A model generated the notes under the pieces. It saw only the letters and a program-made list of their open reading frames with translations. It ran no database searches and was not told where the DNA came from. A DNA stretch of 64,000 nucleotides from Nitrososphaerota archaeon (GTDB taxonomy: Archaea > Thermoproteota > Nitrososphaeria > Conexivisphaerales > DTJL01). The stretch lies in assembly GCA_021324115.1 (NCBI GenBank), contig JAJPJS010000008.1:208160-272159 (forward strand). The letters are read 5' to 3'. This document shows positions 17,585 through 19,508 of this stretch, in pieces (the first letter of the stretch is position 1; every line of letters starts with the position of its first letter). Made by a program: the position numbers and the translations under genes.

Positions 17585-17594
17585 CTTATATAAT
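17585..17594 (+). promoter_or_regulatory. TATA box of the riboswitch transcript
   Basis: cTTATATAAT is centred about 26 bases before 17616, the first base of the riboswitch P1 stem, so transcription should begin right at the RNA element. Confidence 0.6.
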
Positions 17595-17613
17595 CAACGG
17601 ATAATCAATCCCA

Positions 17614-17693
17614 TAGGCGATGGAGTCCGCCGGGGCCTGAATGGCCCGAAATGTGCTAATCGCGCTGATGACTCCTACCAGGTTGGGTAGGAG
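17614..17693 (+). promoter_or_regulatory. Fluoride riboswitch (crcB motif) with translational expression platform
   Basis: The 5' part GGCGATGGAGTCCGCC (17616-17631) and the 3' part GCTGATGACTCCTACC (17664-17679) fit the published fluoride-riboswitch consensus. P1 is GGCG (17616-17619) with CGCC (17628-17631); the loop GGAGTC (17622-17627) pairs with GACTCC (17670-17675) as the diagnostic pseudoknot. Between them are two hairpins: GGGCC/GGCCC (17633-17637, 17643-17647) and GTGC/GCGC (17653-17656, 17662-17665). The expression platform is visible: CTCCTACC (17672-17679) can pair perfectly with GGTAGGAG (17686-17693), hiding the GGAG ribosome site; fluoride binding would hold GACTCC in the pseudoknot and free it, giving an ON switch for translation from ATG 17701. 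Confidence 0.9.
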
Positions 17694-17700
17694 AAACAAA

Positions 17701-17778
17701 ATGTTCAGTACTTGCATGGGCCTGTATAATCCAGTCTCCAAGTGGGGGCTCCTAGGGAGTGGTTCTTTTCAGATATGA
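17701..17778 (+). CDS. 25-residue ORF under the fluoride riboswitch
   Basis: ATG 17701 lies seven bases after the GGAG (17690-17693) that the riboswitch hairpin hides, so this is the codon directly controlled. The frame runs 25 codons to TGA 17776-17778. That stop overlaps the ATG of the next gene (ATGA), so translation of the leader should pass on to it. The peptide has one cysteine and a glycine/serine-rich end; no similarity is recognised. It may be a coupling leader rather than a functional peptide. Confidence 0.5.
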   Translation: MFSTCMGLYNPVSKWGLLGSGSFQI

Positions 17779-18077
17779 AATTCAGTTTATACCTAGAAAG
17801 AGATCTGCTGGAGAAGCGGCTTTTAAATGAGGTTGAGATCAATAACCTGATCTTACAATGGTGTGATTACATATTGGCGGAAATGGAGTATGAACAGAAA
17901 CTGAAACAGGCAGAACGCCTTAAGGGTGAAATTCCCAAGCTGAAAGAAGAGCTGGAATATCTGACATCCTTGGAAAACGAATCAGAAAATGACTTGTCTT
18001 GGATGGATAACCGTGTTGACGAACTTGAGATGGAAAACAGAAAACTGCTTGAACATTTGAGGCGAGCCAAGAGATGA
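17775..18077 (+). CDS. Coiled-coil protein, first main gene of the riboswitch operon
   Basis: Start taken at ATG 17775 because it overlaps the stop of the riboswitch-controlled leader; an in-frame GTG at 17742 would add 11 residues. The 100-residue product begins MKFSLYLERDLLEK and from about residue 35 is a continuous Lys/Glu/Leu heptad coiled coil broken by a short SENDLSWMD segment, suggesting a helical hairpin or dimer. No membrane segment and no similarity to CrcB/Fluc or CLC-F fluoride exporters. The next gene overlaps it by four bases. Confidence 0.7.
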   Translation: MKFSLYLERDLLEKRLLNEVEINNLILQWCDYILAEMEYEQKLKQAERLKGEIPKLKEELEYLTSLENESENDLSWMDNRVDELEMENRKLLEHLRRAKR

Positions 18078-18520
18078 AGCCCTTCTTCAATCGTGCGAAG
18101 AACGGAAATTATACGCTTGTACTCGATGAACAGGTAGCAGAGAGGCTGAAAAGAGAAGCGGCCAAGTACGGATTAACACTGGATGACCTTTTGGCGCTGG
18201 CTGCCTCAAAGCTGGTCAACGGGAAACTCGACGTGCACGACCTGCCTTCGAAGAATAAAATTCTGGATGAAGAATTGGAGCGGCTTATTCATGAACACCT
18301 TGGGATATCTTCAAAACTGGCTGCTTTACGTTTCAAACGTTTTTCCACTCATTCTGGTTGCTCCACCGAATCGATTAGACTTCTTGCACTTGAGGCCGAA
18401 AACAGATCTTTGTGCAATGAACTCGGTCTAGCATATGATGATTCTAATTATAAAAAGGCGAAACTGCTCTTTGAGAAGTATCATCAGGAAATGAACACTC
18501 AACTCGAGAAGGGGTACTAG
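18074..18520 (+). CDS. Protein with ribbon-helix-helix-like N-terminus
   Basis: 148 residues, ATG overlapping the preceding stop (ATGA). Residues 13-50 (YTLVLDEQVAERLKREAAKYGLT then DDLLALAASKL) follow the strand-helix-helix pattern of ribbon-helix-helix proteins, so it may bind DNA or serve as an oligomerisation module. The rest is helical and charged. It is translationally coupled to the coiled-coil gene and thus presumably under the fluoride riboswitch. Family not recognised. Confidence 0.65.
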   Translation: MKPFFNRAKNGNYTLVLDEQVAERLKREAAKYGLTLDDLLALAASKLVNGKLDVHDLPSKNKILDEELERLIHEHLGISSKLAALRFKRFSTHSGCSTESIRLLALEAENRSLCNELGLAYDDSNYKKAKLLFEKYHQEMNTQLEKGY

Positions 18521-18646: not shown

Positions 18647-18925
18647 ATGTCTGTTTCCCAAGACGAGCTTGCAAGGTTGAGGGACTCATTAAGGAAGGAT
18701 GTTAGAGATGTGTCCTACATGCTGGCGAAGACAGATAACGAAGTCGAAGAGTTGAAGAAGCAGAACGAATCTGTTCGCGAAGAGATTCATGCACTGAAAG
18801 AAGAAAATGAAAGATTGAACATTCAGAGCCTAGAAATGAAGAAAAAGTTAGAGTATTTTTCAAAGGTGGGAACATTGGCGAAGAGCGCAATTGCAGAAGT
18901 GGAAAGGATCGAGTCCATCAAGTGA
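18647..18925 (+). CDS. Small coiled-coil protein
   Basis: 92 residues, nearly all heptad coiled coil (VEELKKQNESVREEIHALKE). ATG 18647 has a TATA-like element (cttatcaa) about 27 bases upstream, so it may have its own leaderless transcript in addition to any read-through from the riboswitch operon 127 bases before it. No recognised family. It resembles the 17775 product in composition rather than sequence. Confidence 0.6.
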   Translation: MSVSQDELARLRDSLRKDVRDVSYMLAKTDNEVEELKKQNESVREEIHALKEENERLNIQSLEMKKKLEYFSKVGTLAKSAIAEVERIESIK

Positions 18926-19088: not shown

Positions 19089-19508
19089 TCAATGGCTACC
19101 CTCCTCGGCATGTGGAATGTAAATCATCTCCCCCGGATATATCAGGTAGGGGGGAGGGATGGAGTTGACCGCAGCCAAGACTTTCCAGTTCACATGAAAG
19201 CGTAAGCCGATGTTGTACAAAGTATCTCCACTCACCACTTTATAGCAATCGTCAGAGTCATGATTGCCTGCACACAGCGATTTGGGAATGAACAGTACCT
19301 GCCCTGGATAGATTATGTAAGGCGATGTGATGTTGTTCAGCTTGGCAATACTTTGCCAGCTCACATTGAATTTCATCGCTATGAGAATCAGGTAATCACC
19401 CGGTTTGACCGAATAAGTAGTGAATGTATGGGCCTGTATTGGGACTGAAACAAAAGCCAATGATAGCATAGCGGCCACAAATACCATCGCTAGTGCCCTG
19501 GGCAGCAC
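19089..19508 (-). CDS. Secreted protein with two LysM domains
   Basis: 139 residues. An N-terminal signal or anchor segment (about 5-25, ending IQAHT) is followed by two LysM modules: YSVKPGDYLILIAMKFNVSW with YPGQVLFIP, and YKVVSGDTLYNIGLRFHVNW with YPGEMIYIP. LysM normally binds GlcNAc-containing glycans such as peptidoglycan or chitin; an archaeon lacks peptidoglycan, so the ligand here may be a surface glycan or foreign cell wall. Two cysteines between the modules (ca. residues 79 and 87) could form a disulfide. Confidence 0.85.
   Translation of the reverse strand: MLPRALAMVFVAAMLSLAFVSVPIQAHTFTTYSVKPGDYLILIAMKFNVSWQSIAKLNNITSPYIIYPGQVLFIPKSLCAGNHDSDDCYKVVSGDTLYNIGLRFHVNWKVLAAVNSIPPPYLIYPGEMIYIPHAEEGSH

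Follow-up and report, generated by a model that had tools for sequence, protein, structure and literature searches.

The window analysed in this study is the whole stretch of 64,000 nucleotides from an uncultured Nitrososphaerota archaeon, and all coordinates refer to it. On the forward strand, a TATA-like box TTATATAA (17587-17594) is followed by a fluoride (crcB) aptamer of the Rfam family RF01734 (17607-17684, delimited by the covariance model), a hairpin that is the predicted expression platform (17672-17693), a leader open reading frame (17701-17778) and two small genes. Gene 1 (17775-18077) encodes a 100-aa coiled-coil protein of no known family, with homologues that are confined, within the order, to the taxonomic family of the window. 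Gene 2 (18074-18520) encodes a 148-aa protein with a predicted ribbon-helix-helix N-terminus and a long coiled coil, and its start codon overlaps the stop codon of gene 1 in the sequence ATGA (18074-18077). A 92-aa coiled-coil ORF lies just 3′ of the pair (18647-18925, forward strand); it is absent from the loci of the relatives and was excluded from the unit. On the reverse strand, 19092-19508 encodes a secreted protein that carries two LysM domains, here in an archaeal genome.

Searching the window with the Rfam covariance model gave a match to RF01734 at 17607-17684 on the forward strand, which scored 45 bits (gathering score 34; E = 3e-9); the earlier note, made from the letters of the sequence, had anticipated a significant match at about 17614-17680. 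The match spans the full model (positions 1-64), and the 2.14-Mb, 95% complete genome holds no second copy. P1 (17616-17631) is formed by GGCG at 17616-17619 and CGCC at 17628-17631, and its loop bears the 5′ pseudoknot strand GGAGTC (17622-17627), all six bases of which form Watson-Crick pairs with the 3′ strand GACTCC (17670-17675). Both P1 and this perfect pseudoknot were found where the earlier note had placed them. An optional hairpin, GGGCC/GGCCC (17633-17647), occupies a variable insertion of the aptamer according to folding and the Rfam alignment, and P3 (GTGC/GCGC, 17653-17665) was located by the Rfam match and by folding. The consensus residues AUGG and CUGAUGACUCCUAC are intact in the Rfam alignment. 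The aptamer is placed in a 5′ leader, with the TATA-like box 26 nt 5′ of P1 and a start codon 16 nt 3′ of the aptamer.

For the covariation and promoter tests, 79 fluoride aptamers were extracted from archaea of the window's class. In this set 472 of 474 pseudoknot cells (99.6%) are paired, against a mean of 393 and a maximum of 407 with shuffled 3′ strands. Several pair types occur at five of the six pseudoknot positions, with compensatory changes on both sides; the change from GGAGTC/GACTCC to GGATTC/GAATCC alters both strands and keeps the pairing. The aptamer of one member of the window's family (G006) has one pseudoknot mismatch and scores slightly under the gathering score. An RF01734 match of 22 bits in another genome (G010:C1) lies inside a coding frame and was rejected as spurious. 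Because the Rfam score is well over the curated threshold and the pseudoknot covaries in the 79 relatives, the identification of the window RNA as a fluoride riboswitch of the known class is supported, and the RNA would be expected to bind fluoride. The AT fraction ahead of the 79 archaeal aptamers is 0.89-0.95 at −30 to −27 from P1, within an AT-rich stretch that spans −30 to −26, and about 0.6 elsewhere; the centre of the window's own TATA-like box precedes the first P1 base by about 26 nt. Since the AT peak sits where a TATA box is expected across the aptamer population, the transcript probably starts at about P1, which supports the previous suggestion that the TATA box sets the start at the first base of the element.

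The 3′ part of the aptamer overlaps a hairpin in which CTCCTACC (17672-17679) and GGTAGGAG (17686-17693) form eight Watson-Crick pairs around the loop AGGTTG. This hairpin buries a Shine-Dalgarno-like GGAG (17690-17693) that lies 7 nt (AAACAAA) ahead of ATG 17701, and the coordinates previously reported for it were all confirmed. The hairpin region folds at -13.8 kcal/mol, an energy reached by 0.55% of its dinucleotide shuffles, and none of 100 shuffles of the window contains a match to the hairpin pattern. Bases 17672-17675 (CTCC) belong both to the 3′ pseudoknot strand and to the anti-Shine-Dalgarno arm, so that the bound aptamer and the closed hairpin are mutually exclusive, as had been correctly recognised. 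When the pseudoknot strand was held out, opening the start region cost 7.1 instead of 10.1 kcal/mol in the window and 2.5 instead of 3.9 kcal/mol in a relative, G007; in G006 and G008, folding showed a start region no easier to open. The hairpin as such is not conserved in the three closest relatives, and a comparable effect was found in just one of them (G007). Outside the window's family, occlusion was tested in those 56 relatives whose start codon lies no more than 60 nt away, and in about 23 of these the pairing of the start region by the pseudoknot strand exceeded that in 95% of shuffles. In many relatives of the class the start codon lies 8-40 nt past the aptamer and is similarly occluded.

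A translational switch turned on by fluoride is the best reading of the platform, because the exclusive pairing buries GGAG, no T run follows the hairpin and many relatives in the class occlude their starts likewise. The prediction is well supported computationally; the exclusive pairing in the window and the many class relatives speak for the previous proposal that fluoride turns translation on, whereas the hairpin itself is not shared by the three closest relatives. Translational regulation is also presumed for the archaeal fluoride riboswitch of Speed et al. (2018), as far as its citation in PMC8241225 goes. Control by transcription termination, as in bacteria, where fluoride riboswitches (for example in B. 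cereus) work via terminator formation (PMC11077080, PMC13273304), is very improbable here, as the hairpin at 17672-17693 is followed by AAACAAAATG, buries a Shine-Dalgarno-like sequence and has counterparts in the occlusion of nearby start codons across the class.

The CrcB/Fluc or CLC-F gene named in the earlier note as the usual target was not found beside the window riboswitch, where an uncharacterised gene pair stands instead. CrcB/Fluc or CLC-F is a common companion of the RF01734 RNA family and does not enter into its definition. No CrcB (PF02537) was found above cut-off in the window's genome or in any of the 20 genomes of the order; the sole sub-threshold match (21 bits) runs antisense to a thiolase-like gene, contains stop codons and was rejected. 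The neighbours of the riboswitch include no CLC domain, and two CLC proteins are encoded elsewhere in the genome, not adjoining it; inspection of their filter residues gave no assignment to the fluoride type. Among the 79 class aptamers, the commonest target, in about 33 cases, is a CrcB-like gene, frequently with a DUF190-like gene after it, as assigned by sequence pattern and by eye; Na+/H+ exchanger genes (7, with PF00999 checked in one), MutS-like ATPase genes (4, one checked) and genes for a NuoH/formate-hydrogen-lyase-like subunit (3) were also found. Other families of the order have a riboswitch before a 493-497 aa protein (L003, L004, L005 and L006), and the one tested, that of L003, matches the MutS ATPase domain.

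The arrangement of aptamer, short ORF, coiled-coil gene and second gene was found in all four family genomes examined, which belong to three genera, and both pair proteins are about 29-57% identical across these genomes. Besides the riboswitch, the neighbourhoods of the four loci have only the two genes in common. A riboswitch left after the loss of crcB, by chance ahead of unrelated genes, would fit the absence of CrcB from a genome and order whose class most often places the riboswitch before a CrcB-like plus DUF190-like pair. We nevertheless consider such a relic improbable, as the unit is kept across the three genera at this level of identity among otherwise unrelated neighbours, and as a pseudoknot changed on both sides still pairs.

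Searches of Pfam, NCBIfam and PADLOC gave no convincing known family for either pair protein, nor did the PDB yield a convincing match by sequence or fold; PHROG gave a single match under E 0.001, to a family without known function. In the genome contigs, a single-sequence search with gene 1 gave no match, and an alignment search with gene 2 recovered only two already known relatives; JARVJU010000002.1 carries a relative from the window's family. No relatives of the pair were found in viral contigs and phage records. The novelty lies in the target of the riboswitch and in its setting: in an order that lacks CrcB, the riboswitch, an overlapping leader ORF and an uncharacterised gene pair are conserved together as one unit.

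Start codon ATG 17701, to which the earlier note had drawn attention, does stand 7 nt after GGAG, but it opens no long gene. The ORF that begins there, MFSTCMGLYNPVSKWGLLGSGSFQI, has 25 codons, and its stop codon (17776-17778) overlaps the next start in a further ATGA (17775-17778). The genes common to the relatives begin at 17775 and 18074, not at 17701. A short ORF of 20-45 codons follows the aptamer in each of the four family genomes, and its stop overlaps the next start in every one of them (shuffle product 0.002, for a feature picked post hoc). The sequence of the leader peptide is not conserved among the four genomes, unlike both downstream proteins. This arrangement is most simply explained by a leader whose translation links the switch to the gene pair, with the coupling itself suggested by the overlaps. 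The riboswitch might instead control the leader ORF only, as a fluoride-induced micropeptide, while the pair uses translation signals of its own; the occluded GGAG directly precedes ATG 17701 and not 17775, and some members have GGGAG and GGAGG-like sequences 10-15 nt ahead of gene 1. This is unlikely, as it is the two downstream proteins that are conserved and not the peptide, and the overlap of stop and start in all four genomes points to coupling.

The AlphaFold2 model of the gene 2 protein, built from six sequences (mean pLDDT 75), shows a strand and two helices at residues 13-48, then a helix of 64 residues and a final helix; a model from four sequences (pLDDT 58) was discarded as too poor. 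In the Foldseek search with this protein, the ribbon-helix-helix DNA-binding proteins FitA, NikA and CdbA ranked high with non-significant scores (E above 1). The gene 2 profile matched CopG weakly (E 0.1) and also matched short CcdA/CopG-like proteins in other archaea, and Pfam RHH_1 matched one gene 2 member weakly (E 0.12). From these several weak signals, a ribbon-helix-helix layout is predicted for the N-terminus. The protein thus predicted resembles those of the CopG/Arc/NikA type in its strand-helix-helix N-terminus, but no sequence or fold score to them is significant, and it differs in adding the 64-residue coiled coil and in always being paired with a second coiled-coil protein.

A DNA-binding regulator is the likeliest role of the pair, and a coiled-coil scaffold is the main rival. 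In two further archaea of the class, fluoride riboswitches stand ahead of TFIIB-family genes, which makes a cascade from fluoride to a transcription factor plausible. The rival reading takes the pair as a structural or protective coiled-coil complex, a direct fluoride-induced effector and not a DNA-binding regulator. It deserves serious consideration while falling short of probable: both proteins are largely coiled coil, Pfam gave no significant match to a DNA-binding domain in either, and the strongest conserved motif, H..SSK.ASLRF.Y, falls in the coiled coil, whereas the N-terminal strand-helix-helix and the weak yet repeated ribbon-helix-helix matches argue for the regulator.

A search of the phylum identified both genes as neighbours in G419 and G440, two genomes of another class, where no fluoride riboswitch accompanies them; the profile-profile P values were 8.6e-8 and 1e-8. 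The occurrence of the pair without the riboswitch in another class suggests that it is older than its fluoride control and has a basic role independent of fluoride. An inverted repeat with 16-nt arms lies at the promoter upstream of the G419 copy (L117:1944-1979); it is possibly an operator, which would suit autoregulation. At another place, G419 also carries a fluoride riboswitch of 46.6 bits (L119, G419:C30), before the gene for a 285-aa protein that resembles, by eye, a prenyltransferase beta subunit.

Weinberg et al. (2010, PMC2864571) already reported the crcB motif in archaea, as well as ahead of mutS and of genes for K+/Cl- transport and formate hydrogen lyase. The window element shares with that motif the aptamer consensus, P1, P3, the pseudoknot, the position in a 5′ leader and the expected gene activation, and differs in its target, the short leader ORF and coiled-coil pair being outside the classes listed there. 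In Thermococcus kodakarensis, the fluoride riboswitch (Speed et al. 2018, as cited in PMC8241225; its transcript was mapped in PMC4247193) is, as far as the cited passages go, likewise archaeal and presumed translational, and likewise precedes a non-crcB gene, TK0513. TK0513 adjoins crcB in these accounts, whereas crcB is absent from the order of the window, where the riboswitch targets other genes, the pair described here. Units of riboswitch, crcB and a DUF190-like gene in other Nitrososphaeria (L065, L071, L086 and others) are alike in the aptamer, the TATA spacing and, in many, the occlusion of the start; they target the fluoride channel, in contrast to the family of the window, which has replaced this arrangement or never had it. 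No paper on fluoride riboswitches in Thaumarchaeota/Nitrososphaeria was found among those that the literature search covered.

In the model that we propose, transcription would start at about P1. Without fluoride, CTCCTACC, which carries the 3′ pseudoknot bases, would pair with GGTAGGAG and hide the GGAG to which ribosomes bind ahead of ATG 17701; when fluoride is present, the aptamer would lock the pseudoknot, withdraw CTCC and free GGAG. Ribosomes would then translate the 25-codon leader and enter both small genes via the two ATGA overlaps, and the two proteins would form a DNA-binding regulator that mounts the fluoride response in an order without CrcB. Taken as a whole, from the translational switch through the coupled leader to the regulator pair, we regard this model as reasonably probable. 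A wider proposal is offered tentatively and is rather doubtful: a two-tier circuit in a lineage lacking CrcB, in which fluoride, through the coupled leader, would induce a heteromeric ribbon-helix-helix/coiled-coil regulator of a fluoride regulon, an ancient pair that is used elsewhere without a riboswitch having been recruited for it. How cells withstand fluoride is learnt mainly from the genes that remain under fluoride riboswitches, and here, in an order seemingly without CrcB, one family keeps the riboswitch strictly on two uncharacterised proteins. This leads to the specific and testable claim that fluoride tolerance may extend beyond export, possibly via a transcription regulator, and the locus is predicted to offer a clean model system in which an archaeal riboswitch acts on translation through a coupled leader ORF.

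Elsewhere in the class, fluoride riboswitches were observed to cluster in two archaea of one genus, 6 and 8 of them in stretches of about 20 kb (G086:C37 at 54-74 kb and G185:C57 at 26-48 kb; L059-L062). The riboswitches in these apparent fluoride regulon islands precede genes for TFIIB-family proteins, NuoH-like subunits, secreted proteins, a TIR-like protein and a transporter. In many genomes of the same genus, the fluoride riboswitch also stands before genes for secreted proteins of 340-510 aa (L066, L069, L077, L083, L084, L091 and others), an unusual target, and one such protein has a plastocyanin-like copper-binding domain.
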